A model generated the notes under the pieces. The model saw only the letters and a program-made list of their open reading frames with translations, did no database searches and had not been told where the DNA came from. From Tannerellaceae bacterium (GTDB lineage Bacteria; Bacteroidota; Bacteroidia; Bacteroidales; Tannerellaceae): a stretch of 41,323 nucleotides of DNA. Where the stretch lies: contig JAITGS010000056.1 of the NCBI GenBank assembly GCA_031280435.1, positions 1-41,323 on the forward strand, given 5' to 3'. How positions within the stretch are numbered: position 1 is the first letter of the stretch; each line of letters starts with the position of its first letter. Of the stretch, positions 86 to 41,323 are shown piece by piece. The position numbers and the translations under genes were made by a program.

Positions 86-652
86 GGCCCACCGATAAAC
101 TCACTTGAGCCAGGGAAAAGTTTTGGAGCCACCGATAAACTCAGTTGAGCCCGGAAAAACGATTTGGAGCCACCGATAAACTCACTTGAGCCAGGGAAAA
201 GTTTTGGAGCCACCGATAAACTCGGTTGAGCCAGGGAAAAGTTTTGGAGCCACCGATAAACTCACTTGAGCCCCAAAAAACGATTTGGGCCCACCGATAA
301 ACTCAGTTGAGCCCAAAAAAACGATTTGGAGCCACCGATAAACTAGGTTGAGGCAAAACAGGCCTTTTTGGGGCACTTTGAGCTTATCGCTGATGAAAAA
401 AAAGGGTTTTGAGAGGAAGCCGGTCTCTCATTCGGCCCAAAAAACTTTTTTTGGCGACAATGTGGCAGCCCGATTAGCCCCAAAAAAAATTTTGAGGACA
501 ATGTGGCATATCATTTCTTCCAAAAAAATGATTTTGCCTCAATCTAGTTTATCGGTGGCTCCAAATCGTTTTTTGGGGCCCACCGATAAACTCACTTGAG
601 CCCCCAAAAAGATTTGGGCCCACCGATAAACTCACTTGAGGCGGAAAAAAAT
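86..652. repeat. Array A: ~40-bp tandem repeats with an inverted copy
   Basis: The core ACCGATAAAC starts at 91, 131, 172, 212, 252, 293 and 334 (periods 40-41 bp), and again at 582 and 622 (period 40). One inverted copy of the core lies at 547-556. Each unit is a conserved half (CACCGATAAACTC then TTGAGCC) followed by an A/T-rich half that comes in at least two flavours, GGGAAAAGTTTTGG or CCAAAAAACGATTTGG. Between the blocks lies degenerate material in which GACAATGTGGCA recurs at 456 and 497 (41 bp apart). The array occupies the whole gap 3' of the ftsK operon. The short open frames across it follow from the repetition and are not called as genes. Confidence 0.9.
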
Positions 653-694
653 CTCTCTCAACCGAGAGACCACAGTGTTGTGGGCGCCGGCCAC

Positions 695-2164
695 CTACTT
701 GATATAGGGCGAGATGTAGTAATACACGTCTTTCGAGGGGCTGCTCTCGATGTGATAGCGGTCGGAGGCAGTGATTCGGAAGGTATAGCCTTGCTCAATA
801 TCCGTAGATATATCGAAGCGGGCCTCCTGCCTGCGCAGGCCGGTAGCGAGAATATTCACCGGATTTTCAGTGTCTACCCACGGGCCGGGCGATGCATAAA
901 CCGTGAACGAAGCCGGCTCGGCCTGACTTGAGGCCGAAACCTCCCAGGCGAGGCGGATTTGGTTCCCCTCAACCGATACCGACAGGTTAAGGGGCGCCGG
1001 AGGCCTCTCGTCGCTCAGCCATGACAGCGGAGGGAGCAGGGCCGGGTAGCGGAAGTAGTGATTCTGGAGGCTGTCGCGTATCCCCTTGGCGTTGCGGAAT
1101 ATCTGGGCGCCGCGGAAGAAGGCTATGCCGTCGGCGTTCACCGCCCTCAGGTAGTTTATCTGCCGGCTTATCTCGTCGGCCGGCCAGTTGTCCGGCGGCA
1201 GCATGCGATAGGGCGCGAGGCCGGCCACAAAGTGCCGGTTCGACTTGTACTGCATCCAGTTTTTCACGAAGGGATAGAAGAACATATCCTTGAAGTACAG
1301 CATGGGGGCCACGAAATCGTGAATCTCGTCGTGCAGCCACCTTTGCGCATCCTGATAAACCGACAGCCCCGTTTGTCCGGCATTGGGCACTATATTGATG
1401 CGGCTATATTTTCCGAGCGGCGAGCTGCTCACCTGAATCCAGGGCTTTTGGCTCTTCACCATGTGATATATCCTCTCGACCGTGCGGTAGATGTTGTCCT
1501 CCCGCCACTCGCGCAGGCTTTTCGAGCGTCCGTAGCGCGAGTAGGTTGCGGCATCGGGGAATCCGTCGGCCAGGTCGGGGTAGCGGATGTAGTCGAAGTG
1601 TACGCCGTCAACATCATAGCCTTCGATGAGCTCCTCCACCAGCTCGTACAGGTAGTCGGACGTGCCGGGCAGGCCGGGATCCATGTACCACTCGCCGTTG
1701 TAGAGCTTGCAGAGGTCGGGGCGCTGTCGCGGCACCGATCGGCGATTGCGTCCGGCAGCGGCAGCCGTTCCTACCGGATAGGTGACAATCCATGCGTGGC
1801 ACTCTAAGTTGCGCTTATGACATTCGTCTATGGCGAAGGCCAGCGGATCGTATCCCGGATTGCCTCCGAGCCTGCCCGTGAATACGCTGTTGAAGGGCTC
1901 TATGGCCGAGGGGTAGATGAGGTCGCCTCTGAGCCTCACCTGGAGGAAGACGGTGTTGAAGTTGCAGCTCCTGAGCATGTCGAGCTTGTCGCAGAGCTCC
2001 TGTTGCTGCTGCCTGCGGCCCGATTCGTTCACAGCGGGGCGCGTAGGCCAGTCCATGCCGTAGATGGTGGCCATCCAAACCGCGCGCATCTCCCTTTTGG
2101 GATAATCGGCGGCTTGCAGATGCAAAGACAGGAGTAGGAGGCTTAAAAGGGAAAGCAATCTCAT
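695..2164 (-). CDS. GHL10-family (YngK-like) putative glycoside hydrolase
   Basis: A 489-aa exported protein. Residues 1-18 form a Leu-rich signal peptide ending near LQAAD. Residues ~20-370 match the glycosyl-hydrolase-like GHL10 domain (PF02638, a TIM-barrel family): the start REMRAVWMATI, the segment FNTVFLQVRLRGD, and the acidic strand YDVDGVHFDYIRYP at ~183-196 that normally carries active-site carboxylates. Residues ~380-485 look like a fibronectin type III-like beta domain (PPAPLNLSVS opening). The substrate is unknown; family members are usually linked to envelope or peptidoglycan-like glycans, which is family knowledge and not visible here. The start is 4 bp after the trxB stop, so it is very likely the last gene of the ftsK-lolA-trxB operon. 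The stop is followed by repeat array A. Confidence 0.85.
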   Translation of the reverse strand: MRLLSLLSLLLLSLHLQAADYPKREMRAVWMATIYGMDWPTRPAVNESGRRQQQQELCDKLDMLRSCNFNTVFLQVRLRGDLIYPSAIEPFNSVFTGRLGGNPGYDPLAFAIDECHKRNLECHAWIVTYPVGTAAAAGRNRRSVPRQRPDLCKLYNGEWYMDPGLPGTSDYLYELVEELIEGYDVDGVHFDYIRYPDLADGFPDAATYSRYGRSKSLREWREDNIYRTVERIYHMVKSQKPWIQVSSSPLGKYSRINIVPNAGQTGLSVYQDAQRWLHDEIHDFVAPMLYFKDMFFYPFVKNWMQYKSNRHFVAGLAPYRMLPPDNWPADEISRQINYLRAVNADGIAFFRGAQIFRNAKGIRDSLQNHYFRYPALLPPLSWLSDERPPAPLNLSVSVEGNQIRLAWEVSASSQAEPASFTVYASPGPWVDTENPVNILATGLRRQEARFDISTDIEQGYTFRITASDRYHIESSPSKDVYYYISPYIK

Positions 2165-2168
2165 GCGT

Positions 2169-3116
2169 CTATACGCTGAGCAGATAACGATCGGCCTCTA
2201 TTGCGGCCTTGCAGCCGGAGGCAGCGGCCGTGATGGCCTGGCGATAGCGTGAGTCGGCCACGTCGCCGGCCGCAAAGACGCCGGGGAGGCAGGTGCGGGG
2301 GCTGTCGGCTTCGGTTATGATGTAGCCGGCCTCGTCGGTGGCGAGCCACTCGCGGAAGATCCCGGAGTTGGGCGTATGGCCTATGGCAAGGAAGAAGCCG
2401 TCGACGGCTATGCTTACCTCCTCCGCGTCGGGCATCCCTTGGCGCTTAACGAGGCGGGCTCCCTCCAGCGCATGCTCGCCGAACAGGCCTACGGTGTTAT
2501 GCTCGAACAGTATTTCTATCCTCGGATTATGAAAGACCCTATCTTGCATCACCATCGAGGCCCTCAGCCGGTTTTTGCGTACAATCATATATACTTTCGA
2601 AGCCAGCGACGCAAGGTAGATGGCTTCTTCGCAGGCCGTATCTCCTCCGCCTACAACTGCAACCACCTTCTTGCGGTAGAAGAAGCCGTCGCAGGTGGCG
2701 CAGGCCGATACGCCGCTGCCGGCGTACTTCTGTTCGTCGGGCAGGCCGAGGTACTTCGCCGAGGCGCCCGTTGCTATTATGAGGGTATCGGCCTCCATCG
2801 TCAGGCTTTCGTTGATAATGACGCGATAGGGAGCTTGCGAGAGGTCGGCTCCGGTAGCTATTCCGGCACGCAGATCGGCTCCGAGGCGGCTTGCCTGCTG
2901 CCTCAGGTTGTCCATCAGCTGTATGCCCATGATTGGATCGGGATGGCCCGGGAAGTTCTCCACGTGGCTTGTGATTGTAAGCTGTCCGCCCGGCTGCATT
3001 CCTTCGTAGAGTACGGGCGAAAGATTTGCGCGGGTGGCGTAGATGGCGGCGGTGTATCCCGCCGGGCCGGAACCTATGATGAGGCAACGGACCCTTTCGT
3101 TCGTTGTTGTGTTCAT
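2169..3116 (-). CDS. trxB: Thioredoxin-disulfide reductase
   Basis: A 315-aa flavoprotein of normal family length that transfers electrons from NADPH through FAD to thioredoxin in the cytoplasm. Visible motifs: N-terminal FAD-binding IGSGPAG (~14-20); the redox-active CATC in SACATCDGFF (C139 and C142); the NADPH-binding GGGDTACEEA; and the C-terminal FAD motif GVFAAGDVAD near residue 285. It lies 31 bp downstream of the lolA-like gene and 4 bp upstream of the GHL10 gene, so it is translated from the ftsK operon message. Nothing is missing or frameshifted. Alternative assignments among pyridine nucleotide-disulfide oxidoreductases are unlikely given the CATC motif between the FAD and NADPH motifs. 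Confidence 0.96.
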   Translation of the reverse strand: MNTTTNERVRCLIIGSGPAGYTAAIYATRANLSPVLYEGMQPGGQLTITSHVENFPGHPDPIMGIQLMDNLRQQASRLGADLRAGIATGADLSQAPYRVIINESLTMEADTLIIATGASAKYLGLPDEQKYAGSGVSACATCDGFFYRKKVVAVVGGGDTACEEAIYLASLASKVYMIVRKNRLRASMVMQDRVFHNPRIEILFEHNTVGLFGEHALEGARLVKRQGMPDAEEVSIAVDGFFLAIGHTPNSGIFREWLATDEAGYIITEADSPRTCLPGVFAAGDVADSRYRQAITAAASGCKAAIEADRYLLSV

Positions 3117-3147
3117 GATTTTAATGTGTTTGATGTGAATTATAGTT

Positions 3148-3783
3148 TTAACGCAGGTCTATGACTTCCGCTCCGGGATACTTTCCTTCGGGGAAGGCGA
3201 AGAAGCCGTCGGGGCGCGACAGTCCCGTTTGCAGGTTAGCGATGCGTATGGCGCTGTATGTTCCGTTCTTCATGCTGATGCGGATATAAGATGGGAGGCT
3301 GCCGGCCTTGTCGATTTGCAGCTCTATGCCGGCAATGTCCGACTTGCCCGTGGGCTTGAGCTCAACCTGATGGATCATGCGTCCGCTGCGGCCCGTTGCC
3401 TCGCCCCCGTACTCGGCCTTGAAGCCCTTTCGGTAGTCGCGGATGAGGACGGCCGGATTGGTGAGCCGCAGCTCCTCCCCTTCGGGAGTGCTGATGTTCA
3501 CCTCGTTCGCCTCCGTCAGGTAAACCCATTGAGTGAGGCCGTCGTACCAGGTAAGTATGCCCGGCGTGGCCAGGGTGAACTTGTCTCCCTGCATGTTTAT
3601 TATCCCCTCGGCCGATTCGGTGGTCGCTCCGGTCTGGGTTTGTATGCTGAAGGTGGCGGAGATGCCTTTGGCGTCGCGATAGGCCTTGGCCGACTTTTCG
3701 AGGATAGCGTCCGCCGACGTTTGTGCCGCAACAGGGATGGCCTGAAGCGCGAGTGCTACATATATATATAATGTAAGTTTCAT
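3148..3783 (-). CDS. lolA: LolA-like outer-membrane lipoprotein carrier protein
   Basis: A 211-aa secreted protein with a clear signal peptide (residues ~1-20, ending VAAQTS). The mature part has the LolA-type pattern: a helix AILEKSAKAYRDAKGISATFSI, then alternating strands including GIINMQGDKFTLATPGILTWYDG, typical of the open beta-barrel that carries lipoprotein acyl chains across the periplasm. Sequence similarity to proteobacterial LolA is low, so the call rests on fold pattern, length and position. It starts 18 bp after the ftsK stop and ends 31 bp before trxB; the order ftsK-lolA-trxB is, from memory, common in Bacteroidales. Whether it delivers lipoproteins to a LolB-independent acceptor is not shown here. 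Confidence 0.85.
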   Translation of the reverse strand: MKLTLYIYVALALQAIPVAAQTSADAILEKSAKAYRDAKGISATFSIQTQTGATTESAEGIINMQGDKFTLATPGILTWYDGLTQWVYLTEANEVNISTPEGEELRLTNPAVLIRDYRKGFKAEYGGEATGRSGRMIHQVELKPTGKSDIAGIELQIDKAGSLPSYIRISMKNGTYSAIRIANLQTGLSRPDGFFAFPEGKYPGAEVIDLR

Positions 3784-3801
3784 ACGAAAGGAAGTTGATG
3801 C

Positions 3802-6240
3802 TTATTTGAGGTTCTTCAGAATATATTCGAGCGAAACTAAGTCCTGGATCAGTACCTGACGCCCCTTGCTGCCGTCGGTGGGGCCGACTATGCCCGTAGC
3901 TTCAAGCTGATCGCTGATACGTCCCGCGCGGTTGTATCCGATGTTGAATTTGCGTTGTATGAACGATGTAGAGCCCTGCTGGTCTACCACTACGGCACGG
4001 GCAATCTCCTCGAAGAGCGGATCCTTGCGCGAGAGGTCAACCGAAACATCGCCGCCTCCGCCTCCGCCTTCCAGGGCGTATTCCGGAAGCTCAAAGGCCG
4101 TGGCATAACCCGTCTGCCGTCCAATGTATTCCGATATGGACTCCACCTCAGGCGTATCCACAAAGGCGCATTGCACACGTATCAGGTCGTTCCCCTGAGA
4201 GAACAGCATATCGCCCCGGCCTATCAGGCGGTTCGCCCCGGGCTGGTCGAGTATGGTGCGGGAGTCTATCATGGACGATACCCTGAAGGCCAGCCTTGCG
4301 GGGAAGTTGGCCTTTATCGTTCCGGTAATGATGTTGGTAGATGGGCGCTGGGTTGCTATCACCATGTGCAGACCCACGGCCCGCGCTTTCTGCGCAATCC
4401 TCGCTATGGGCAGCTCTATCTCTTTCCCGGACGTCATTATCAAATCGCCGAACTCATCAATGATAACCACGATGTAGGGCATGTACCTGTGGCCCTTAAG
4501 GGGGTTGAGCCGGCGGTGAATGAACTTGTCGTTGTACTGTTTGATGTCTCTCACGTGCGCCTGCATCAGCAGGTCGTATCTGTCGTCCATCTCCTTGCAC
4601 AGCGAGTTGAGCGTCTGAATCACCTTGGACGGATCCGTTATAATGGCCTTATCCCCTTCCGGAAGTTTGGCCAGATAGTGCTTCTCAATGCGTCCGTAGA
4701 TATTAAATTCAACCATCTTGGGGTCGACAAGCACAAACTTCAGTTCCGCAGGATGCTTTTTATACAGCAGCGAGGTAATAAGCGCGTTCAGCCCAACCGA
4801 TTTCCCCTGGCCCGTAGCCCCGGCCACCAGCAGGTGAGGCATCTTGCAGAGGTCGAACATAAAGATCTCGTTCGTGATGGTCTTACCCAGGGCAACCGGC
4901 AGGTCGTACTTACATTCAACATACTTGCGCGAGGAGATGATGGACTGCATCGAAACGATCTGAGGATCTTTGTTAGGCACCTCAATCCCAATCGTACCCT
5001 TGCCGGGCATAGGCGCTATGATACGTATGCCCAGCGCCTCCAGGTTGAGAGCAATATCATCCTCCAGGTTCTTTATTTTGGCAATCCGGACGCCAACATC
5101 GGGCACCACCTCGTACAGCGTAATCGTAGGGCCCACCGTCGCCTTGATAGAAGCTATGCTTATGCCGAAGTTCTCCAGGGTTTGCTTGATGCGGCGCTGG
5201 TTTGCTATCTGTTCGTCGAAATCCACCTGCTTGTCCGGCGATTCGTACTTCTGGAGCAGGTCGAGCGTAGGGTTGCGGTAGGCCGAGAGGTCGAGCTTGG
5301 GGTCGTAGTCCTCCAGGTCGAGCTCCGGCACGAAATCATCCTCGCCAATCTCTTCCGCAGCAGCCTCATCCTGAAACGCAGGAGGCTCCGGCACGTAGGT
5401 TTCCTCATCAGGCGCAATGCTTATAACAAATTCCTCGGAGGGCGAAGCAGCATCCTCCGGCGGCGGAGCCGATGCGGTGATGAGTGGCGCCGGCCGTCGC
5501 CGCATCGGAGGCTCCACGTCGGCGGCCTCCTCCTGTGGCTCCTCATCATCCTCATCCTCATCCGCAGCAGGACGTCTTAAAAAGCCGAAGGAGAAATTAG
5601 GCCGCCTCATCAGGCCCAATAAAAAAGGAAGGGTGCGGGAGCTGGTCAGTATGGAGATGATTAGGAATACTCCCAGCAACATTAATAACATTCCCGGCAC
5701 CCCTATATTGCTGACAATGACGTCTGCTATGTACTGCCCGTGCAATCCTCCGGGATTGAGGAAAAAGCCGGGCCGTGCGAAAAAGAATCCGAGGAAAACG
5801 GAGCCCCACAGCAGCCATGAGGCGCTGAACAGGAATCGCTTGAGGATGGAAATGCCCCTCACATGCATCAGCCTGGCCGCAACGGAGCCCATGAAGAACA
5901 GCAGCATTACCGACGGGATTCCGAACATGCGGTTCACGAGCAGGTTTGCCAGGTAGGCTCCCCTGACGCCCGCCCAGTTCTGCACCACAGCCTCCCGTCC
6001 GACTTTCATGTCGCCCATACGCTCCAGTGCAAGCTCCTTAAGCGACACATTTTCGATCTTGCTCTGGTCGGCCGCTCCCGAAAAGAAAAAGGAAATGATT
6101 GCGCAACCCATGTACATGGTAATGAAGGCTAAAATCAGCCCGCAAACGAACTGCGTCCTGTAATTCCCGAAAAATTCCGCCATGGAGCGGAACATTCCTG
6201 CCTTCTCATTATTCTGTTTTTTTGTTGCTCGTTTCGACAT
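3802..6240 (-). CDS. ftsK: DNA translocase FtsK/SpoIIIE
   Basis: An ~812-aa septal DNA pump that clears chromosome dimers and terminus DNA during division. The N-terminus has four predicted membrane segments (about residues 25-50, 105-120, 135-160, 185-205). An acidic, proline-rich linker follows to ~residue 340. The RecA-like motor has Walker A GATGQGKS at ~474-481 and Walker B VVIIDEFGDLI at ~590-600. The last ~65 residues are a winged-helix gamma domain (TSFIQRKFNIGYNRAGRI) that reads polar DNA motifs. The frame is open to a Met at 6264, but the promoter -7 box TATCTTTG occupies 6262-6269, so translation must begin downstream; MSKRATKK at 6240 is chosen, with 6249 possible. First gene of a four-gene operon. 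Confidence 0.95.
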   Translation of the reverse strand: MSKRATKKQNNEKAGMFRSMAEFFGNYRTQFVCGLILAFITMYMGCAIISFFFSGAADQSKIENVSLKELALERMGDMKVGREAVVQNWAGVRGAYLANLLVNRMFGIPSVMLLFFMGSVAARLMHVRGISILKRFLFSASWLLWGSVFLGFFFARPGFFLNPGGLHGQYIADVIVSNIGVPGMLLMLLGVFLIISILTSSRTLPFLLGLMRRPNFSFGFLRRPAADEDEDDEEPQEEAADVEPPMRRRPAPLITASAPPPEDAASPSEEFVISIAPDEETYVPEPPAFQDEAAAEEIGEDDFVPELDLEDYDPKLDLSAYRNPTLDLLQKYESPDKQVDFDEQIANQRRIKQTLENFGISIASIKATVGPTITLYEVVPDVGVRIAKIKNLEDDIALNLEALGIRIIAPMPGKGTIGIEVPNKDPQIVSMQSIISSRKYVECKYDLPVALGKTITNEIFMFDLCKMPHLLVAGATGQGKSVGLNALITSLLYKKHPAELKFVLVDPKMVEFNIYGRIEKHYLAKLPEGDKAIITDPSKVIQTLNSLCKEMDDRYDLLMQAHVRDIKQYNDKFIHRRLNPLKGHRYMPYIVVIIDEFGDLIMTSGKEIELPIARIAQKARAVGLHMVIATQRPSTNIITGTIKANFPARLAFRVSSMIDSRTILDQPGANRLIGRGDMLFSQGNDLIRVQCAFVDTPEVESISEYIGRQTGYATAFELPEYALEGGGGGGDVSVDLSRKDPLFEEIARAVVVDQQGSTSFIQRKFNIGYNRAGRISDQLEATGIVGPTDGSKGRQVLIQDLVSLEYILKNLK

Positions 6241-6261
6241 ACGCTTCATTAAAATATGGCG

Positions 6262-6269
6262 CAAAGATA
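6262..6269 (-). promoter_or_regulatory. -7 box of the ftsK operon promoter
   Basis: TATCTTTG on the minus strand matches the Bacteroides -7 consensus TAnnTTTG exactly. No TTTG was found 19-21 bp upstream. Transcription would begin near 6255, 15 bp before the chosen ftsK start. Confidence 0.65.
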
Positions 6270-6345
6270 ATCAATTGCGATATACTTATAGCGAGCCGCC
6301 AACAGAGGCATGCGGCGAATCGGCATTTGCCTAATAAAAAGCCGC

Positions 6346-6471
6346 GGAAGGCGTTTGTGAATGAGGCTACGCTCAAAAAGCAGGGTCGGAAGGTGTTTGT
6401 GAATGAGGCTACGCTCAAAAAACAGGGTCGGAAGGCGTCTGTGAATGAGGCTACGCTCACAAAGCAGGTCA
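6346..6471. repeat. Array B: three 42-bp tandem repeats
   Basis: GGAAGG followed by GTGAATGAGGCTACGCTCA recurs with starts at 6346, 6388 and 6430, exactly 42 bp apart. A fourth, inverted and diverged copy of the ACGCTCAAAAA part is at ~6592-6615, on the far side of the REP-bounded element at 6467-6590. The unit is a multiple of three, which gives long open frames on both strands with 14-residue repeats; no start or promoter context supports translation. Confidence 0.85.
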
Positions 6472-6590
6472 TTCCCGCGAAGGCGGGAATCTCCGATCGA
6501 GATCTGGGACGATTGTATGTGTTTTCGTGTGACACAACTACAAACGTAACCGTTTTTCGATCGGAGATTCCCGCCTTCGCGGGAATGACC
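6467..6590. repeat. REP-bounded ~124-bp palindromic element, copy 1
   Basis: Two perfect 34-nt inverted arms, 6467-6500 and 6557-6590, each containing the hairpin ATTCCCGCGAAGGCGGGAAT, flank a 56-nt centre. The arms match copy 2 (26963-27089) while the centres differ apart from short shared words such as GGGACGA. The hairpin word resembles REP/dRS3-type repeats found in many bacteria. No transposase is encoded, so if mobile it would need help in trans. It is inserted within the flanking repeats of array B. Confidence 0.85.
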
Positions 6591-6646
6591 CGTTTTTTGA
6601 GCGTAACCTGCTTCATGAATACCCCCTTTTTCCTATGAATATACCA

Positions 6647-6914
6647 AACATAGTCCTATGTTTGCCTCAATTTTTTGGGAATGTACCAAACATAGGACTA
6701 TGTTGACCTTATTTTCTTTTGGATGACCAAAACATAGGACTATGTTGACTTCATTTTTTCTGGGATAACCAAAACATAGTCCTATGTTTGGCCCGTTTTC
6801 CTTTTGATGATATAAACATAGGACTATGTTTGGCCCGTTTTTCTTTTGGGGATATGAACATAGGACTATGTTTGGCCCAAATTCTTTTGAAAGATATGAA
6901 CATAGGGCTATGTT
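6647..6914. repeat. Array C: seven 16-bp palindromes at exact 42-bp spacing
   Basis: Palindromes with arms AACATAG and CTATGTT start at 6647, 6689, 6731, 6773, 6815, 6857 and 6899, each exactly 42 bp from the last. The central dinucleotide is TC in copies 1 and 4, GA in copies 2, 3, 5 and 6, and GG in copy 7. The arms are intact in all seven, while the 26-bp spacers (T-rich, with a loosely conserved TTTTCTTTTGG) vary. Conservation of arms against variable spacers suggests that the palindrome is the selected part. It lies between the ftsK promoter and the gene at 7020. Confidence 0.95.
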
Positions 6915-7019
6915 TTGTTGAATACTTTTTTTGAGATGTCCGGGCTTTACAGGGCGATATTCAATGGAAAAGCTTTTTCTTTGTTGCCGTATAACAAACC
7001 GTATAATTATAAGTGAAAG

Positions 7020-7817
7020 ATGGAAAACAAGATTATGCAGCACAAGTACATTCTGTATTTATTGTCGGTGGCGCAGGCGGTTGAGTTTCATGTGGAAACG
7101 ACGGACCTGATCCGGGACGATGTTGCCTTGGTTGAGCAGATGACGGACCTTATGGCGGACTACGAAGCCGCTACTCAGGCTCTGGAGGAGGCCTTCGGGG
7201 ATAGCCGGAAGTCCTTCGAAACCGAATTTATAGCCGGCAGCGACGTATCGCGCGACGCCATATCGGCAGAAATAATTCGCCGGGTCAACTTTGTGCACAG
7301 CAATCCTACGGACGAGGCTGAGCGGGAGGCTGCGCGGCTGCTTAAGTTCGAGATAGACAAGTATAACTCCGTCATCCGCCACGGTTACACGGAGGAGACG
7401 CTCGGACTGTTCCACCTTATCATAGACCTGCGCAAGCATCCCGATGCGCTGAACCTGCTTGGCATAGAGCAGCTTCTGCTCAGGCTTGAGGCCGCCAACA
7501 ATGCCTTCGAGCAGCAGTATCTGATACGTACGGTGGCCCTTGAGGCCAAGCGCGAGCGCACGCCGGTGGGCAAGCTGGCGCTCAAAGCCAACAAGTCGTT
7601 CGAGCAGATATGCATATCGGCCGCGGGGCTCATCATTTCGCGTCCGACGGACGAGGTGAAAGCCGCGCTAACGTCCGTCATCTCCCACATCAACGGCCAG
7701 ATACACGATTATACCACCATTGTGCACCGGCACAGCGGCGTCCTGGCCAGCCGGCGCAAGAAAAAGCAGGAGGCGGCCCAAAAGGCGAAAGAGGACGGCA
7801 AGCCGGAAAAAAAATAG
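7020..7817 (+). CDS. Uncharacterised helical protein, DUF6261-like
   Basis: A 265-aa protein that I cannot assign a function. It is predicted almost wholly alpha-helical, cytoplasmic (no signal peptide or membrane segment), acidic in the first two thirds and ending in a strongly basic Lys/Arg tail (RRKKKQEAAQKAKEDGKPEKK region, ~245-265). The layout recalls the Bacteroidales DUF6261 family, but this is from memory and of low certainty. The start at 7020 (MENKIMQHKY) is chosen as first in frame; an internal Met at 7035 is equally possible. No TAnnTTTG box was seen upstream. The region immediately upstream is array C, so a link between this protein and the palindromes is worth considering but not shown. 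Confidence 0.7.
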   Translation: MENKIMQHKYILYLLSVAQAVEFHVETTDLIRDDVALVEQMTDLMADYEAATQALEEAFGDSRKSFETEFIAGSDVSRDAISAEIIRRVNFVHSNPTDEAEREAARLLKFEIDKYNSVIRHGYTEETLGLFHLIIDLRKHPDALNLLGIEQLLLRLEAANNAFEQQYLIRTVALEAKRERTPVGKLALKANKSFEQICISAAGLIISRPTDEVKAALTSVISHINGQIHDYTTIVHRHSGVLASRRKKKQEAAQKAKEDGKPEKK

Positions 7818-9075: not shown

Positions 9076-10959
9076 ATGAAGAACATCAGAGGCAAAATCA
9101 TTGCCGCCACTTTCATCCTTATGCTTTCCGTACCCTTCGGAGCCCAATCGCAATGGAAGTACCTCCCGGAGCGGCAGGCCGTACCTCCTCATCCGCGCAT
9201 CCTGCTGAAGGCGGGCGAGGAGCAGGCCCTGAAGAATAACATTGCCGCCGACCCGACCTGGGCGGCCGTCCATCAGCTTGTAATCAACGAAGCCGACAGG
9301 ATGCTGGGACTGCCGGAGCTTAAAAGGGAGCAGATAGGGCGCCGCCTGCTGTCTGTTTCACGCGAGGCCATACGCCGCCTGTTCTACCTTTCCTACGCCT
9401 GCCGCATGACGGACAGTGAGGCCTACGTGCGCAAGGCCGAGCGGGAGATGCTGGCCATAGCATCCTTCACGGACTGGAACCCCTCGCACTTCCTTGACGT
9501 TGCGGAGATGACGATGGCCTTGTCCATAGGCTACGACTGGCTGTACGCCAAGCTGTCGGAGCCCACCCGGCAGCGAGTGGCCTTAGCCATATTCACGAAG
9601 GGTATAGATCCGTCTATGAACAACAAGAACGCCTGGTACAAAACGGCCACTCACAACTGGAATCAGGTATGCAATGCCGGGATAGCCTTCGGAGCCATCG
9701 CCTTGATGGACAACATGCCGGAGCTGAGCAACAGCATCATAGACGCGGCCCTTGAGAGCATACAGCTTCCCATGAAAGACTACGAACCGGACGGCGCCTA
9801 CCCCGAAGGTTTCGGCTACTGGGACTACGGCACCAGCTTCAACGTCATGTTCCTGAGCGCCGTCGAGAAATTGTACGGCACCGACTTCATACTCGGCAAG
9901 AATCCTTCGTTCCTGAAGACAGGCGAGTACAGGCTGAACATGGCCGGGCCCGGCTACAAGTCGTTCAATTATAGCGACAATGGTCTGAACGGCGGACTGA
10001 ACGCTGCCATGTTCTGGTTTGCCTCCAAAACCAAGAATCCGACCCTTCTGTGGACGGAGAAGCATTACCTGTCGAAAGAAATACGCACGACCGACAGGCT
10101 TTTGCCCGCAATCCTTTTGTGGGGGAGCCACATCCGCATCAGCGAGGTTCAGCCTCCGGAGAATTTAATCTGGACGGGCACGGGCGTGACTCCCGTAGCG
10201 CTGATGCGAACCTCGTGGACGCAGCCCGGAGCCATTTACGTTGGCTTTAAGGGCGGCACGGCATCGAGTAACCATGCCCACATGGACGCGGGCTCGTTCG
10301 TGATGGATGCCGACGGTGTTCGCTGGGCGTCGGACTTCGGCATGCAGGACTACAACTCGCTTGAGACCAAAGGGGTGGATCTGTGGAACCGATCGCAGTC
10401 ATCCGATCGCTGGCGAGTGTTCCGCTACAACAATATGGCCCACAATACGCTGACGGTGAACAATGCGCTCCACGATGTGCAAGGATTCGCTTCGCTTATA
10501 TCTACCTCCGGGCAGGTCGGCTTTATCAGTGCCGTGGCCGAGATGACGCCTGTGTACAAAGGCCAACTTGCGGCTGCAAAGCGGGGCGTAGCTATCCTCG
10601 ACGGGCAATATGTGGCGGTGAAGGATGAGATCAGGACGCAGGGCGGGCAAGAAACCGTAGTGCGCTGGACTATGCTTACAACGGCTACGGTCAAAATCAG
10701 CGGCCGTAATAGCTTTGAGCTCCGGCAAGATGGCAAACGGCTGAAGCTTGAGGTAGCTGAGCCGGCGAAAGTCTCCCTCAAGACCTGGTCGACCGTATCG
10801 CCGAACGACTTCGACGCCGAGAACCCCGGCACGAGCCTGATCGGCTTCGAGGTGAGCCTCCCTCCGTCGACGGAGGCCACTCTGCTTGTGAAACTCATAC
10901 CGCAAAGCGCCAAGCGGACGTCCGGCGCTGTGCCTCCGCTCTCGCAGTGGCCCAAATGA
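9076..10959 (+). CDS. Heparinase II/III-type polysaccharide lyase
   Basis: A 627-aa exported lyase. Residues 1-25 are a signal peptide (ending FGAQSQ). Residues ~35-330 form the alpha-helical toroid seen in heparinase II/III-type lyases, with conserved HNWNQVCNAG at ~194-203 and DGAYPEGFGYWDYGTSF. The C-terminal half is the beta-sheet domain (PF07940) with NHAHMDAGSFVMDADG at ~398-413, whose His residues are the usual catalytic and metal-site positions. It resembles the Bacteroides lyases placed in PL33 or nearby PL12/PL21 families, so the likely substrate is a uronic-acid glycan such as hyaluronan or chondroitin, cleaved by beta-elimination. Its stop overlaps the start of the PL8 gene (ATGA), so the two are translationally coupled. 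Confidence 0.88.
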   Translation: MKNIRGKIIAATFILMLSVPFGAQSQWKYLPERQAVPPHPRILLKAGEEQALKNNIAADPTWAAVHQLVINEADRMLGLPELKREQIGRRLLSVSREAIRRLFYLSYACRMTDSEAYVRKAEREMLAIASFTDWNPSHFLDVAEMTMALSIGYDWLYAKLSEPTRQRVALAIFTKGIDPSMNNKNAWYKTATHNWNQVCNAGIAFGAIALMDNMPELSNSIIDAALESIQLPMKDYEPDGAYPEGFGYWDYGTSFNVMFLSAVEKLYGTDFILGKNPSFLKTGEYRLNMAGPGYKSFNYSDNGLNGGLNAAMFWFASKTKNPTLLWTEKHYLSKEIRTTDRLLPAILLWGSHIRISEVQPPENLIWTGTGVTPVALMRTSWTQPGAIYVGFKGGTASSNHAHMDAGSFVMDADGVRWASDFGMQDYNSLETKGVDLWNRSQSSDRWRVFRYNNMAHNTLTVNNALHDVQGFASLISTSGQVGFISAVAEMTPVYKGQLAAAKRGVAILDGQYVAVKDEIRTQGGQETVVRWTMLTTATVKISGRNSFELRQDGKRLKLEVAEPAKVSLKTWSTVSPNDFDAENPGTSLIGFEVSLPPSTEATLLVKLIPQSAKRTSGAVPPLSQWPK

Positions 10960-14292: not shown

Positions 14293-14340
14293 CGGCGCCT
14301 GTGCGAAGACTTTCCATTAACCGGATCGGTTACTGTGCAT

Positions 14341-14500
14341 TTCGCGATCCCCTGCATGCTCATTTCGCGATCCCCTGCATGCTCATTTCGCGATCCCCTG
14401 CATGCTCGTTTCGCGATCCCCTGCATGCTCGTTCGGCTCCCACCCGAATGCTCGTTCGGCTCCCACCCGAATGCCCGTTCGGCTCCCACCCGAATGGAGA
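14341..14500. repeat. Array D: 23-bp tandem repeats in two blocks
   Basis: Four near-identical units begin with TTCGCGATCCCCTGCATGCT at 14341, 14364, 14387 and 14410, followed by three units beginning TTCGGCTCCCACCCGAATGC at 14432, 14455 and 14478. The spacing is 23 bp throughout except the 22-bp step between blocks. The blocks share TTCG, CTCC/ATCCCC and ATGCTCG, as if one was derived from the other. The array lies between GH88 and the dnaN promoter. No DnaA boxes were seen. Confidence 0.93.
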
Positions 14501-26684: not shown

Positions 26685-26781
26685 ATCTTCGATATTTGTT
26701 AAATATTTTAAGTTTATTCTATATATTCAAAAACTGCCTCCAAATACAAAGTTTTTTTTGCCGGATAGTGCGGCCTTAGCC

Positions 26782-26866
26782 CCAAGAACAATGCAAATGT
26801 TCTCAGGAATAATTGCGTTGTACCCAAGAACAATTGCGTTGTACTCAAGAACAATTGCGTTGTTTT
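26782..26866. repeat. Array E1: 21-bp repeats upstream of carAB
   Basis: AAGAACAATTGCGTTGTAC-type units have the core AATTGCGTTG at 26811, 26832 and 26853, exactly 21 bp apart, preceded by one degenerate unit near 26783. The core contains the palindrome CAATTG in two copies. The same CAATTGCG word heads many units of array E2 beyond the REP element, suggesting one array split by an insertion. Confidence 0.8.
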
Positions 26867-26875
26867 CGTCATTGA

Positions 26876-27126
26876 GGGGGTGTGCAAAAAGTAATTCATG
26901 CAAATTGGATTCGCTTAAACAAGCGGAGGCTGTGTAAAAAGGAATTTCCGCCAGCCCATGCGGGTCATTCCCGCGAAGGCGGGAATCTCCGATCGAAAAA
27001 GGGGACGAATGGGTATATTTTTCTTCATATAACACAAATACTATCGTCCCAACTATCGATCGGAGATTCCCGCCTTCGCGGGAATGACCTATTTGGGCGG
27101 GCGGAAATTCCTTTTTGCACACCCCC
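26876..27126. repeat. REP-bounded palindromic element, copy 2, with nested inverted flanks
   Basis: Perfect 34-nt inverted arms at 26963-26996 and 27056-27089 are the same as in copy 1. Outside them the pairing continues with TGTAAAAAGGAATTTCCGCC (from 26933) against its near-complement at ~27099-27121. Further out GGGGGTGTGCAAAAAG (26876-26891) pairs with 27111-27126. The 59-nt centre holds a second inverted pair, GGGACGA and TCGTCCC. The whole could fold as a cruciform. No coding capacity. Confidence 0.8.
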
Positions 27127-27142
27127 CTGCGAGCCACCCCCG

Positions 27143-27411
27143 CAACAATGGAATTGTAGCCGGCAATATTTGAATTGTATCCGGCAATAATGGAATTGTA
27201 GCGGGCAACAATTGCGCGGTTGCCGGCAATAATCCTGCGGTAGCCGGCAACAATTGCGCGGTAGCCGGCAATAATCCTGCGGTAGCCGGCAATAATCCTG
27301 CGGTAGCCGGCAACAATTGCGCGGTAGCCGGCAATAATCTCGCGGTAGCCGGCTACAATTGCGATATTGCCGGCTACTTTTGCGTTGTAGCCAAATACAA
27401 TTGCGTTGTAT
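27143..27411. repeat. Array E2: about thirteen 21-bp repeats
   Basis: Units of the form GCCGGCAACAATTGCGCGGTA alternate irregularly with GCCGGCAATAATCCTGCGGTA, at 21-bp spacing over ~270 bp, grading into diverged units at both ends. Each full unit carries the palindrome GCCGGC, and one variant also CAATTG. Because 21 is a multiple of three, several frames are open and read as heptapeptide repeats (GYRAIVA / GYRRIIA). No promoter or start context supports a gene. It fills the gap between purF and carAB. Confidence 0.92.
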
Positions 27412-27599
27412 TTTAAGATTCTCGCCTTATTTCCCGGAACAATTGCCTTGTTCCTGAGGGATTTTTGTGAGGGGGTAAGGGGGAGCGGATTTTGTGGGCT
27501 AACCTGTCGTATTGGGAAAAATGCGGGAATGGCGGGCCTGTGTTCCCGTCGTGATTGGGATTGTTTGAGGGGCATTCCAATCGTTTCCGCAGCCATTTG

Positions 27600-34106: not shown

Positions 34107-34114
34107 CAAATATA
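34107..34114 (-). promoter_or_regulatory. -7 box of the S9 peptidase
   Basis: TATATTTG on the minus strand, an exact match to TAnnTTTG, ~50 bp before the ATG. It implies the peptidase can be transcribed independently of the efflux genes. Confidence 0.55.
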
Positions 34115-34169
34115 TGGAAAAAGCGATACTCTGACGCACCGCCTTTCCGAGCTTCATGCCTTCACTCCA

Positions 34170-35420: not shown

Positions 35421-35509
35421 GATAATATGAGAAATGAATGGTTATTAATTAATTGATGTTATTGTATATGCACATCCTGTTGTTATGTGTATTTGCCTTC
35501 GTTGCCATT

Positions 35510-36838: not shown

Positions 36839-36871
36839 CGTGTATAAACTATTATGTTCTTATTAGGAATA

Positions 36872-36888
36872 ATACAAATCACATGCCA
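36872..36888 (-). promoter_or_regulatory. Sigma-54-like promoter of the tolC-adaptor operon
   Basis: On the minus strand TGGCAT-GTGAT-TTGTA matches the -24/-12 consensus TGGCAC-N5-TTGCA with GG and the second element spaced correctly; the -12 GC reads GT. The start would fall ~25 bp before the tolC ATG. No clean TAnnTTTG is present, which favours this alternative. Confidence 0.5.
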
Positions 36889-36942
36889 AAGTCATAATGT
36901 ATATGCTATCAGCCATATACATAAGCCTCGTCGAAGCGTCAA

Positions 36943-36978
36943 CGTCAAAAAAATAGACGTTACTGTCCATTTTTTTGA
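36943..36978. promoter_or_regulatory. 36-bp palindrome, possible activator site
   Basis: GTCAAAAAAATAGAC (36943-36957) and GTCCATTTTTTTGAC (36964-36978) are inverted complements with one mismatch around a 6-nt centre. It lies 55-90 bp upstream of the sigma-54-like promoter, where NtrC-family activators commonly bind. It could also form an RNA hairpin, but no transcript is expected through it from tolC. Confidence 0.55.
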
Positions 36979-37250
36979 CACTTGCACAGCAAAAAATATA
37001 GTTCGCCGCCTTAGTTCGCTGAAAAAACCATGGCGTATTAAAGCTGCTTTTGGCTTAATCACAACTGATGCAATGAAAAGTGCCCCGCTTTTGGGGTGAA
37101 TCAGTAGTTATACTAGGAAAAGTCAGGAGCAATTTGCAACCAATACATTCTTCGCAGGAAAATAATAGCCGGAAATACATATTTGCAGGCATGAATCTGA
37201 AGAATAATTACTTCAAACCATTCCCTGCGCTTTAATTGCTACTGAAAAAA

Positions 37251-39158
37251 TCAATGATTGAGCCGTAAATTACCCTTTTCCAATACCAATCCCGAGCCGC
37301 TATCTATAAAATATCTTATTGCAGAGATTGTTTGTTCCGCAGGGAACGGCAGGGCCGCAACGATCTTCTCAACCTCAAGCGATTGAGTGCCAAGGAGCTC
37401 GGATATGGCGTCCCAGATAAGGTCGGGGTCAACCTGAGGCTCGGTTTCGGGCGTTTTTCTAAGGCAAAAGTCGCATTGTCCACAGGGTTCCGACTGTTTT
37501 TCGCCGAAATATGCGAGTAGCATTTGGCTGCGGCAGCGATTTTCGGTAGACAGATAGTCAATGGCTTTGCCTATGCGCTGTTCAAATCGTCGCCTTCGGT
37601 CTTCGTAGGCCGCGGCAGGGATGATTATATGGCGCGATTCTTCCCGGCTGCGAGAATAGATAATTCGCGGTATTTTGCGTTGGGGAATATAGTTGATTAT
37701 CCGTCTTTTAGAAAGGGAAATGAGGGTTTCGTAAACGTCTGTGTATTGGCATCCTGTTCGTGTGGCGATCAATCCCTCGTTGATGAAGGCATAATCGGTG
37801 AAAAGGCCTGTATATGTACGAAGAATGCATTGTACAATATCGTCGGTGAGCTTGCTGCCTTGCAGAAAACTGTAAAGCTCATCGCGGGTGACAAGAAACA
37901 TCAGTCGCGAGGCCCTGTCTGTTTCTTCTAAGTATTCAATGTATCCGGAAAGCTCCAGAATTTTCAGAGCATAGTGGGTTTGTAAAATCGGAAATTTGTA
38001 TACGGCACAGAATTGAGCGAGAGAAAACTCGTGTATGCTTTCGAAACCAAATCCTGCGGCCACCTGAAAATAGCTGCCCAGGGTATCATATATTTTACGA
38101 ATTACTTCTTTAGCCGGAAATTCGTCGGACATACGTTTTTTTATCTTCCTGACGTCCAGCTCGCAGCTTACTACTACTACGGCGTAGGCTTTTTCCCCGT
38201 CGCGTCCGGCTCGTCCGGCTTCCTGAAAATATTCTTCGAGCGAGCCCGGCATGTCTACATGAAGTACGAGGCGCACGTCGGGCTTGTCTATGCCCATTCC
38301 AAAGGCATTTGTGGCTACCATTACTCTACATTCTCCTTTTTTCCAACGATCTTGGCGGATGTTTTTTTCATCACTGTTGATGCCGGCATGATAAAAGTCG
38401 GCCTCGATTCCGTTTGCTTGCAGTACGGCGGCCATTTCGGCGCAGCGTTCCCGGCTGCGTACATATACAATAGCGCTGCCGGGTACTTTGTTGAGAATGT
38501 GTATAACGGTATATTGTTTTGTATCGGTATTCCGCACCACGTAGGCGAGGTTGCTACGGTGAAAGCTGACTGAAAATACGTTTGGCTCCTTGAACTTCAG
38601 TTGTTTCTGTATGTCGTCAACGGTTGTCGGAGTAGCTGTGGCCGTGAGGGCGAGTACGGCTGCGTTCGGCAGCATCTCGCGTATGTCGGCAATGGCAAGG
38701 TAGGACGGTCGGAAGTCGTATCCCCATTGCGAGATGCAGTGACATTCGTCGACGGCTATGAACGACACATTCATGGCTTTCAGTTTGGCGCGGAAGAGCT
38801 CGGAGCTCAATCGTTCGGGCGATACGTAAAGGAATTTGTAGTCTCCGAAGATGCAATTTTCGAGCCTGGCTACTATTTCCGCAGCATCCATACCGGAATA
38901 GACGGCTGTGGCCTTTACTTTTTTGTGCCTGAGGTTATCAACCTGGTCCTTCATCAAGGCAATAAGCGGAGTTACAACTATACAAATTCCATCGGCTGCA
39001 AGTGCGGGTACCTGAAAGGTTATTGATTTGCCTCCCCCGGTAGGCATTAATCCGAGCGTATCTTTTCCTGCAGCTATGGAATGGATTATGTCTTCCTGAA
39101 GTGGTCGGAAAGAGCTATATCCCCAATAGTCGGACAATATTTGGTGATAAATATCCAT
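37251..39158 (-). CDS. recQ: ATP-dependent DNA helicase RecQ family (short form)
   Basis: A 635-aa superfamily 2 helicase unwinding DNA 3' to 5'. Motif 0 is FRPLQEDII, Walker A MPTGGGKS (~39-46), the DExH box is DECHCISQWGYDFRPSYL, and motif VI reads QEAGRAGRDG. The RecQ zinc site is seen as CRSQMLLAYFGE followed by CGQCDFC. After it comes a winged-helix-like tail (~570-635); there is no recognisable HRDC domain, so this is the shorter of the two RecQ types common in Bacteroidales. It starts 10 bp after recJ's stop, so helicase and nuclease are co-expressed, a natural pair for single-strand gap and end processing. Confidence 0.94.
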   Translation of the reverse strand: MDIYHQILSDYWGYSSFRPLQEDIIHSIAAGKDTLGLMPTGGGKSITFQVPALAADGICIVVTPLIALMKDQVDNLRHKKVKATAVYSGMDAAEIVARLENCIFGDYKFLYVSPERLSSELFRAKLKAMNVSFIAVDECHCISQWGYDFRPSYLAIADIREMLPNAAVLALTATATPTTVDDIQKQLKFKEPNVFSVSFHRSNLAYVVRNTDTKQYTVIHILNKVPGSAIVYVRSRERCAEMAAVLQANGIEADFYHAGINSDEKNIRQDRWKKGECRVMVATNAFGMGIDKPDVRLVLHVDMPGSLEEYFQEAGRAGRDGEKAYAVVVVSCELDVRKIKKRMSDEFPAKEVIRKIYDTLGSYFQVAAGFGFESIHEFSLAQFCAVYKFPILQTHYALKILELSGYIEYLEETDRASRLMFLVTRDELYSFLQGSKLTDDIVQCILRTYTGLFTDYAFINEGLIATRTGCQYTDVYETLISLSKRRIINYIPQRKIPRIIYSRSREESRHIIIPAAAYEDRRRRFEQRIGKAIDYLSTENRCRSQMLLAYFGEKQSEPCGQCDFCLRKTPETEPQVDPDLIWDAISELLGTQSLEVEKIVAALPFPAEQTISAIRYFIDSGSGLVLEKGNLRLNH

Positions 39159-39168
39159 TTCAGGCCTT

Positions 39169-40899
39169 TTACTGTTCGGGAATCCTGATGTCTTTTATCA
39201 ATAGCTGGATGTTTGTATTTCCGATGTAAGCATTTTCTTCAATGCTATAACAAATGTCGAAAGGGAGTTGGGCCATTATGTACTCGCTGTATTGATGCAT
39301 GCCGAAAGCGATGGCGTGAATCGGGCTTTTGCAGCTCTCGTCTATGAGTTCGAGCCTTACGTGTTCGAGCTCTTTCCCAACGAGCTTGCTTGTGCCGAAA
39401 TCTTTTACGTTGCGGCTGCAAAAGATTGGCTTTGAGTTATCCGGCCCGAATGGGCTCATCTTTTTGAGTTCGCCCACAAGGGTTGCCGTGATGTCTTTCA
39501 GCTCTATTTCGGCGTCGATTTCTATTTGCGGCGACATCTGTTCGGGTTCAATCAGCTTGTCGGTGAGTTCCATAAATCTGTCGATGAAGAGGTCGAGGTT
39601 TTCTTCTTTGAGCGTGAGCCCAACGGCGCATGTATGTCCGCCGAAATTTTCAAGAGTGTCGCTGCAGCTTTCAATAGTTTTGTAAACGTCGAACACGTTG
39701 ATTGATCTTGCCGAGCCGGTGATCATGGAGGTTTGTGTGGATTTTGTAAGTACAACGGCAGGCATGCAGTATTTTTCGGTAAGCCGTGACGCAACGATGC
39801 CTATGACGCCGCTGTGCCAGCTCGGATCGTAAACAACTATGGCTTTGCGATCTTCCATGTTGGTGAATCTGTCGATTATAGCGTTGGCTTCGTCGGTGAT
39901 TTTCTTATCAAGTTCGCGGCGTTCGTCGTTGTATTTGTTGATATTTTCACTCTTTTCGCGAGCGCTTTCGCTGTCCCGCACGAGCAGCAGGTCAACGGCT
40001 TCTCCGCCGTTCATCATGCGTCCGGAGGCATTGATTCGAGGCCCTATTTTAAAAACTATATCGTTGATAGTGATTTCCTTACCTCCCAAGCCGCAAATGT
40101 CGATTATCCCCTTCAACCCGAGGCTCGGAAAGGAGTTGAGCTGCTTGAGCCCATAGTATGCGAGCACTCGATTTTCGCCGGTGATAGGAACAATATCGGC
40201 TGCGATGCTGACGGCGGCCAGGTCGAGGAGCTTCTCGAGCGGAGCGAGCGGAATGTCGTTGCTGGTGGAAAAAGCTTCCATGAATTTATATCCGACGCCG
40301 CATCCCGACAGGTGTTCGTATGGATATGAGGAGTCTGCGCGCTTCGGATTTAGCACAGCCACGGCATCGGGCAGTACGTCGTCGGGCTTGTGATGGTCAC
40401 ATATAATAATGTCTATGCCTTTTTCTTGTGCGTACTCAATTTTGTCAACGGCTTTGATGCCGCAATCGAGCGCAATGATGAGTGTAATGCCATGGGTGGC
40501 AGCATAGTCAATGCCTTTGATAGAAATGCCGGAGCCTTCACCGTCGCGATCGGGAATATAATAATCGAGGGTGGAAGAATAGGGCCTGAGATATTTGTAC
40601 ACCAGCGATACGGCGGTTGTTCCGTCGACATCATAATCTCCATAGATTAATATTTTTTCTTTATCTCCCAGCGCCTGATTAAGCCGTTTTACCGCCTTGT
40701 CCATATCGGGCATCTGATAGGGGTCGTGCAGGTCGCTGAGATGCGGTTGAAAAAACTTTTGTACTTCTTCCTCGGAAGTAATGCCTCTCCGGACAAGAAG
40801 CAAGCAGGTTACGGGGCTGTATCCCAGCAACATTGCAAGTTCGCTACTCTTATGTAATTCTTCCGGTGTGGGGGTGTGTAAATTCCATTTGTATGCCAT
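39169..40899 (-). CDS. recJ: Single-stranded-DNA-specific exonuclease RecJ
   Basis: A ~576-aa DHH-family 5'-3' exonuclease. The metal-binding motifs are ILIYGDYDVDGTTAVSL, ALDCGI, ICDHHKPDD (the DHH signature) and NPKRADSSYPYEHLSGCGVGYK. The DHHA1 domain shows SGSARSINVFDVYKTIESCSDTLENFGGH. The C-terminal OB-like domain (~460-576) ends with QLLIKDIRIPEQ. An in-frame Met at 40956 would add 19 residues (MCFIPISALHTDKRKK) that look unlike the family; MAYKWNLHTPTPEEL at 40899 is the normal start. It is the first gene of the recJ-recQ pair. No -7 box was recognised upstream. Confidence 0.95.
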   Translation of the reverse strand: MAYKWNLHTPTPEELHKSSELAMLLGYSPVTCLLLVRRGITSEEEVQKFFQPHLSDLHDPYQMPDMDKAVKRLNQALGDKEKILIYGDYDVDGTTAVSLVYKYLRPYSSTLDYYIPDRDGEGSGISIKGIDYAATHGITLIIALDCGIKAVDKIEYAQEKGIDIIICDHHKPDDVLPDAVAVLNPKRADSSYPYEHLSGCGVGYKFMEAFSTSNDIPLAPLEKLLDLAAVSIAADIVPITGENRVLAYYGLKQLNSFPSLGLKGIIDICGLGGKEITINDIVFKIGPRINASGRMMNGGEAVDLLLVRDSESAREKSENINKYNDERRELDKKITDEANAIIDRFTNMEDRKAIVVYDPSWHSGVIGIVASRLTEKYCMPAVVLTKSTQTSMITGSARSINVFDVYKTIESCSDTLENFGGHTCAVGLTLKEENLDLFIDRFMELTDKLIEPEQMSPQIEIDAEIELKDITATLVGELKKMSPFGPDNSKPIFCSRNVKDFGTSKLVGKELEHVRLELIDESCKSPIHAIAFGMHQYSEYIMAQLPFDICYSIEENAYIGNTNIQLLIKDIRIPEQ

Positions 40900-41220
40900 T
40901 ATAATGATTTTTTTTCTTTTGTCTGTGTGAAGTGCACTTATTGGTATGAAGCACATTAGAGGTATTTTTTCCGAAAGCCTTTTATTTTAGGCATCATGTC
41001 GGCAAAAAATAATTGCGTAAAAGTAGGCATTATTTTGTGATGAGAAAGCGAAAGATCCTTAATATTTCTTTTATGTGCTTCTTTTGGAGGGAGTATTAGT
41101 CTGTTTCACAAGCTTTCTCGTGCCCTTAATAATATTAATGTATGAAACACGTATTAGTCGGAAAAATCTGCGAGCCGGAAATGTTTAGCCAAGGACAAAG
41201 GCATCTAAACGAATCTCACT
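40900..41220. other. Intergenic region upstream of recJ
   Basis: No gene is supported. The sequence is A/T-rich. The word GTATTAGTC occurs twice (about 41092 and 41152), with TTTCAC and GAAACAC nearby in opposite orientation and an A/T-only stretch TTAATAATATTAA between. These may be binding sites for the gene beyond the window or for recJ, but the evidence is slight. Confidence 0.5.
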
Positions 41221-41323
41221 TCGGGGGTTCCCAAAATGTTTTCGGGGGTTCCCAAAATGGTTTCGGGGGTTCCCAAAATGTTTTCGGGGGTTCCCAAAAT
41301 GTTTTCGGGGGATCCCAAATTGT
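41221..41323. repeat. Array F: five 21-bp repeats running off the window edge
   Basis: TCGGGGGTTCCCAAAATGTT-type units start at 41221, 41242, 41263, 41284 and 41305, exactly 21 bp apart, the last cut by the window end and already diverging (GGATCCC). Each unit contains GGG-TT-CCC. It is unrelated in sequence to arrays A-E, but shares the exact 21-bp period of E. Confidence 0.93.

Follow-up and report, generated by a model that had tools for sequence, protein, structure and literature searches.

The window studied here is a 41,323-nt stretch of DNA that makes up an entire contig (C114) of an uncultured, gut-type Tannerellaceae bacterium, and our subject is the set of short tandem repeat arrays that lie between its genes. 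The genome it comes from (G000, hereafter the source genome) is a draft assembly with 143 contigs, a total of 3,057,007 bases and a completeness of 83%. The FtsK encoded in the window is closest to records from Tannerellaceae and Parabacteroides, a large share of which are metagenome-assembled. Seven arrays were identified in the window with Tandem Repeats Finder (TRF), in four gaps between genes and near both contig ends (Table 1); the first begins after 88 bases of the contig, and the far end of the contig falls within another. Pfam domains of the genes flanking them include ftsK, dnaN, carAB and recJ. Our main finding is that arrays of this sort fall into two narrow classes of unit length while being mostly unrelated in sequence, and that this is real and general in the genus. 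Intergenic arrays that for the most part are unrelated have the same few periods in the source genome and in its relatives alike, and a common cause is therefore needed.

To place the window in its genomic context, two further samples of the source genome were added, giving 669 kb in all (22% of the genome). Arrays were retained at a TRF score of at least 100 and a period of at least 12, the basic period was taken from lag identity, and genes were predicted with a purpose-written hexamer script. We found 122 tandem arrays, with basic periods of 21 (14 arrays), 23 (12), 39 (1), 40 (13), 41 (54), 42 (25), 43 (1) and 63 bp (2), so that 120 of the 122 occupy only seven values: 21, 23 and 39 to 43. 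TRF itself prefers a multi-unit period in 36 of the 122, two of these having a basic period of 63. A scan made without TRF gave the same picture, 97.7% of periodic intergenic positions being at lags 21-23 or 40-43. The density, 18.2 arrays per 100 kb, is inflated, since most of the sampled stretches start at contig starts; in 16 of the 38 loci that start at the first base of a contig, an array starts at most 400 bases in, and arrays therefore tend to break the assembly.

A first-pass annotation of the window, made from its sequence, had described intergenic arrays with shared periods, and these prove to be real and larger in extent than it noted. Not every period is a multiple of 21, 41 being the commonest in the source genome (54 of 122). 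It had the arrays absent from coding sequence, which is nearly right: 117 of the 122 lie outside predicted genes and 5 within them, including both 63-bp repeats. It also had them confined to gaps beside housekeeping genes, a location that is not specific, arrays being found throughout the sample. Neither an even spread of periods nor an equal frequency inside genes was seen.

Twelve genomes of the same genus (G001 to G012) were compared with the source genome, which together with G012, G010 and G007 makes up the four best-sampled. These three relatives contributed 44, 16 and 3 arrays, respectively, and when the four genomes are pooled, 180 of 185 arrays have periods of 21-23 or 39-44 bp. The nine further genomes were thinly sampled (26-67 kb each) and yielded 20 arrays, of which 17, from five genomes, are in class; the others have periods of 31, 49 and 65, and three genomes had no array. 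In the scan made without TRF, 92.3% of periodic intergenic positions of G010 were at lags 21-23 or 40-43. The corresponding value for G012 was 30.0%, with 66.8% at lag 10, a signal that probably comes from the 12,000 bases of N in its sample; as the hexamer script called only 51% of that sample coding, the gap counts given below for G012 are weak. Among outgroup families, five genomes yielded four arrays, one of them in class, and three further genomes yielded none. A set of named loci (1,168 kb) contained 22 arrays, 14 in class; these loci are partly the same records, L009-L088 overlapping those of G012, G007, G001 and G006.

The 117 intergenic arrays of the source genome form 56 blastn clusters, the largest containing 11, and all 56 have a period of 21, 23 or 40-43 (a pre-filter at 20-44 bp removed none). 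When the 45 clusters that belong to the 41-class are put through a circular-identity test, 38 separate components remain. Within 41-class units, kinship at half a period shows at lag 21 as a weak excess (z 3.4), the identity in individual units going up to 0.67. The units of relatives show a similarity to those of the source genome that hardly exceeds that of shuffles. The families tested are species-specific: when A, C, D and F of the window were sought in 20 relatives, weak matches were obtained to A alone, and only in G009. Arrays E and F, which the first-pass annotation took to be unrelated (its letters may not correspond exactly to those used here), are not independent: they have a ACAATTGCG core in common, and F matches positions 26813-26843 at 90%.

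It is conceivable that the arrays go back to a few ancestral ones, with units of 21, 23 and 41 bp, which were dispersed by mobility or copying, their sequences diverging while the period was inherited. Several observations point this way. The 23-bp units have a frame in common (five representatives from the source genome, mean identity 0.583; shuffled units, 0.465); family A is present at many sites (32 matches in the source genome, several close to contig starts); and clusters of the 41-class show an excess of similarity, quantified below. Flanks resembling the flank of another block were found for 42 of 93 array blocks, to which the element described next may contribute, and flanking inverted repeats with a score of at least 14 for 9 of 73 blocks against 1.5 expected. 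The same period classes are also reported in Porphyromonas gingivalis (PMC4596501). On the other hand, flanking inverted repeats of score 14 are lacking from 64 of the 73 blocks, and raising the score to 18 leaves 2 blocks where 1.5 are expected, which is no excess; most 41-class clusters are unrelated in the circular-identity test, and the units of relatives stand hardly above shuffles. Inheritance alone, moreover, leaves unexplained why length should outlast sequence, and we consider such a spread unlikely.

Two of the array-bearing gaps of the window contain a dispersed element of about 122 bp that resembles a miniature inverted-repeat transposable element (MITE), with terminal inverted repeats of about 31 bp (TCATTCCCGCGAAGGCGGGAATCTCCGATCG). 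The sample of the source genome contains 30 full or partial copies, 18 of them full (for example, L121 6246-6367), and no such termini, at up to six mismatches, were found in the sampled parts of G012, G010 and G007. As a source of the arrays, the element was rejected: 12 of the 30 copies lie within 200 bp of an array, where random intergenic positions would give 9.15 (and as many as 15 in one or another of 200 draws), and 6 within 50 bp, where they would give 5.75. By eye, the units of array B are inverted across the element, so that window positions 6345-6620 form a large inverted repeat overall. The gap that holds B and C had no matches in phage records, nor did array A with its flank in plasmid records.

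Table 1. Tandem arrays and MITE-like elements of the window
Feature	Positions	Structure	Location	Basis and remarks
Array A	89..352	40/41-bp units, 6.5 copies		TRF; direct and inverted unit fragments run on to ~650
Array B	6345..6468	42-bp units, 3 copies		TRF; inverted unit piece beyond the MITE-like element
MITE-like element	6469..6588	~120 bp, ~31-bp terminal inverted repeats	between B and C	
Array C	6642..6915	42-bp units		TRF
Array D	14338..14496	23-bp units, two types one after the other	upstream of dnaN	TRF; dnaN by Pfam domains
Array E	26781..26863	21-bp units, kin to F		TRF
MITE-like element, second copy	26965..27087		between E and F	
Array F	27142..27405	21-bp units, higher-order periods of 42 and 63 bp		TRF
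Seventh array	41220..41323	21-bp units, truncated by contig end		TRF

Array C is the clearest array of the window. It contains the palindrome AAACATAG(GA, TC or GG)CTATGTTT seven times, with at most one mismatch in the arms, starting at 6646, 6688, 6730, 6772, 6814, 6856 and 6898; the six intervals are each exactly 42 bp, which makes it a striking single case of exact spacing. Between the palindromes lie spacers that differ by 45% on average and are recognisable as diverged copies of one another. Both of the TC centres are inverted, and the spacers that follow them have kept their orientation. In clustered regularly interspaced short palindromic repeats (CRISPR), a conserved palindrome likewise alternates with a more variable spacer of equal length. 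The units here are short, however, and many different repeats occur per genome; since the spacers of array C are copies of each other, a CRISPR array was rejected in its case.

Palindromes are frequent in the units. A hairpin search of unit consensuses gave 62 of 180 at p < 0.05 (60 shuffles each) where 9 were expected, related arrays being counted separately, and the palindromes differ from array to array. The sets used for arm variability, anchored spacing, loop inversion and edge phase were picked by palindrome score and p. In 53 arrays chosen in this way, two of them in predicted genes, the arms diverge from the consensus at 0.074 of positions and the rest of the unit at 0.138, at least one of the non-arm values being inflated by ungapped alignment (L154: 0.545, against 0.287 when anchored); in 34 of the 47 arrays that offer a comparable spacer, this spacer exceeds the palindrome in divergence. 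The spacing anchored on palindromes equals the array period in 326 of 349 near-period intervals, and 26 further intervals are far from it. Loops look inverted in 11 units out of 321, and in four of the 11 the loop is a single base. At L222 10740-11053, the whole 9-nt loop at 10740 is inverted, and at L187 12570-12723, three of seven loops are, in both cases with the following spacers unchanged in orientation; such inversions, like those of array C, are not easily given by single substitutions. Finally, the edges of arrays are more diverged than their interiors (0.142 against 0.121; edges higher in 51 of 82 arrays, p 0.008).

Such palindromes might act as RNA, forming strings of hairpins in transcripts that leave or enter the neighbouring genes. 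For the repeats of P. gingivalis, folding is predicted and transcription of a part of them is reported (PMC4596501). RNA function does not need a near-exact spacing, however, and single changes in the arms comprise 92 G-U and 96 A-C pairs, an equality that is weak evidence as the strand is not known. In the window, the only Rfam family at gathering scores was a tRNA. We regard this role as very improbable.

The arrays may also be under selection, either for helical phase, as the first-pass annotation had proposed, or for a fixed spacing. Each dyad would bind a nucleoid or regulatory protein, the neighbours of which would have to sit two or four helical turns away, and arrays of other spacing would be lost. 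The periods are indeed close to two and four turns; the palindromes of array C are conserved at exact intervals among strongly diverged spacers; and the agreement of anchored spacing with the period and the lower variability of the arms also speak for it. Tracts of at least five A/T are present in 60% of 41-class units against 30% of GC-matched intergenic DNA, and they tend toward the half-period point (p 0.007, n=13); the strand of A-tracts relative to gene direction in tandem gaps (12 to 5) gives too few cases for use.

Gene context points in the same direction in the source genome, where 21 of 42 divergent gaps hold arrays, compared with 7 of 52 convergent ones (p 0.0002 for this difference), and tandem gaps do so in 34 cases out of 293. 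Among gaps with at least 100 array-free bases, the counts are 21 of 38, 7 of 31 and 34 of 115, respectively. In G012, no preference for divergent over convergent gaps is seen (8 of 16 and 6 of 14; tandem, 13 of 83), and in G010 the numbers are too small (4 of 12, 1 of 10 and 6 of 83). Only the source genome, then, shows a clear preference for gaps that carry promoters, and gap length may partly explain it. Arrays also differ between genomes at corresponding sites. The gap between carAB and the next gene measures 915 nt in the window and holds E and F, whereas in G010 it measures about 22 nt, its bounds being taken from tblastn alignments, and is array-free; conversely, a gap that is 31 nt long in the source genome contains an array in G010. 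Arrays are thus gained and lost. In 41 comparisons of orthologous gaps, an array was present in the source genome only once, in the relative only once and in both never, conserved gene pairs being too few to assess positional conservation. An array lies just upstream of ftsK in G012 too (L159 14494-14887, also L017 7413-7806), with 21-bp units unlike those of B and C.

Selection on spacing encounters several difficulties. Periods of 29-34 and 50-54 bp, which would correspond to about three and five turns, are absent among the 185 arrays of the four genomes (one 31-bp array was found in G004), and 23 bp is 2.2 turns. The 56 cluster periods agree slightly better with a pitch of 9.8 (R 0.894) than with one of 10.5 (R 0.847), and a modal period of 41 together with separate classes at 21 and 23 does not fit one pitch. 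With the 18 full copies of the MITE-like element as a control, arrays have 0.155 gap events per substitution against 0.123 (p 0.51), and 0.036 net length changes per substitution against 0.057 (p 0.32). As these differences are not significant, the simplest evidence for ongoing selection on spacing falls, though the control is small. Compensated indels, counted with palindromes as anchors, number 6 against 3.1 expected, and 38 of 238 adjacent unit pairs are of unequal length; a fixed-step count (81 of 561, against 2.1%) was rejected as proof of spacing selection because it is confounded by phase drift. Moreover, so many different palindromes, dozens of them in one fifth of the genome, would demand a very large number of binding specificities or else a reader that recognises structure. 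Helical phase as first proposed thus keeps the common two- and four-turn lengths in its favour but not the missing three and five turns or the 23-bp class, and a shared amplification process, which the same annotation had offered as its alternative, fits as well or better. We judge selection as the common cause rather unlikely.

The alternative of a coding origin, in which the arrays are genes for repeat proteins or their remnants, had been raised because 21 and 42 are divisible by three, and open frames do run through B, C and E/F. This does not stand: 80 of the 120 in-class arrays of the source genome have periods not divisible by three, and the hexamer script left 117 of the 122 outside coding sequence, so that the probability of such an origin is negligible. 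An open frame of 289 codons (window 26727-27596, minus strand) spans E, the MITE-like element and F, where the script calls no gene; it is probably due to chance, because periods of 21 bp keep a frame open. Among the arrays within predicted genes, L122 2291-3225 consists of 63-bp repeats in sequence that the script calls coding, and a leucine-rich repeat protein is only a guess for it.

Our preferred reading, which we advance tentatively as the likeliest cause, with selection for spacing and descent not far behind it, is that a duplication process associated with hairpins sets the unit length, and that the arrays are intergenic minisatellites of one kind, common to several species of the genus. 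Each array would have grown as a short segment, in many cases one with a hairpin-forming dyad, was duplicated in tandem again and again. The segments amplified would be mostly unrelated, with a duplication step nearly always of 21-23 or 40-43 bp; ordinary replication slippage should yield many unit lengths. As mostly unrelated segments share step lengths, it is the process, rather than the sequence, that appears to set the length of the unit. Blocks of several units would then be duplicated again, giving rise to higher-order periods, and whole loops would sometimes be inverted while the neighbouring spacers keep their orientation. Block re-duplication and loop inversion suggest, therefore, hairpin-associated events of replication or repair. 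That a single duplication machinery is at work, and that the hairpin takes part in the duplication step, we infer.

A number of points weigh against a hairpin-associated duplication process. Approximately two thirds of the units have no significant palindrome in the shuffle test, and compensatory double changes in the arms do not clearly exceed chance (8 against 4.4 expected, together with 8 that are non-compensatory). Pairs of 41-class arrays from different clusters exceed the shuffle limit in 4.75% of cases, against 0.6-1.8% in intergenic controls, and because of this excess some of the arrays must be related by descent. Paired nicks half a period from the dyad, tried as a version of the mechanism, predict an edge phase of 0.5, which was not seen: in the 41-class, the left edge has a phase of 0.67 (not significant) and the right edge 0.17 (p 0.0095), and this position of the edges near the palindrome ends may merely reflect the slower divergence of the arms. 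The exact 42-bp spacing of array C, with its strongly diverged spacers, is explained more directly by selection.

Comparison with known systems helps to delimit the kind of element involved. Eukaryotic satellite DNA such as alpha satellite keeps its monomer length as its sequence turns over, forms higher-order repeats and is more diverged at its edges; the arrays described here share these three features, but there is no nucleosome here and they are short and scattered across intergenic DNA. Repetitive extragenic palindromic (REP) elements and the bacterial interspersed mosaic elements (BIMEs) they form, which are associated with REP-associated tyrosine transposases (RAYTs), are clusters of extragenic palindromes, as are our arrays, which differ from them in their regular tandem spacing and unrelated palindromes. 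A REP/RAYT system was rejected, the Y1 transposase family PF01797 having no matches in the source genome (83% complete) while 5 of 14 control genomes were matched.

The closest known kind is that of the 22-, 23- and 41-nt repeats of P. gingivalis, which we compared by their published description (PMC4596501). They include BrickBuilt (23 nt), MITEPgRS/464 (41 nt) and other repeats of 22, 23 and 41 nt; they belong to the same order, are intergenic and dispersed, have the same classes of unit length and are predicted to form stem-loops. BrickBuilt is present in 19 copies with a related unit, 11 of which have portions of both a leader and a tail and 4 both IS5-like inverted ends; apart from homologues in P. 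gulae, no BLASTn match beyond P. gingivalis is reported there, and a spread of the repeats as mobile or copied elements is proposed (PMC4596501). Here, units of 21, 40 and 42 bp occur in addition and, compared with BrickBuilt, arrays are far more numerous, with dozens of unrelated units and mostly without flanking inverted repeats. The tandem repeats of archaeal Borgs also comprise many independently formed arrays with different units, intergenic or genic and A-rich; they are perfect and about half are genic, and confinement to two narrow length classes is not stated in the parts of PMC9879509 at our disposal. In a survey of 7,006 prokaryotic genomes, heptamers are named as the most abundant intergenic tandem repeats (PMC6344855). 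Our searches of PubMed Central (PMC), which mostly does not cover subscription journals, brought up no account of arrays that are unrelated in sequence and yet restricted to period classes like these, and nothing on such arrays in termite-gut or other Bacteroidales; none of six repeat terms was found in PMC5771137, on long-read genomes of P. gingivalis.

As the same classes recur in P. gingivalis, the best hint from outside the genus, something in Bacteroidales may measure these lengths. It is possible, if doubtful, that a machinery of this order copies any dyad-containing DNA by 21-23 or 40-43 bp at a time, roughly two or four helical turns, the enzyme fixing the unit length and leaving the sequence free, and that the repeats of P. 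gingivalis arose likewise. Dozens of unrelated arrays in two narrow length classes, recurring in relatives, call for some machine or constraint able to measure length along DNA. The P. gingivalis repeats of 22, 23 and 41 nt, so far unexplained, would thereby find their place in a general process, and bacteria could have in these arrays an equivalent of satellite DNA, whose monomers keep their length longer than their sequence.

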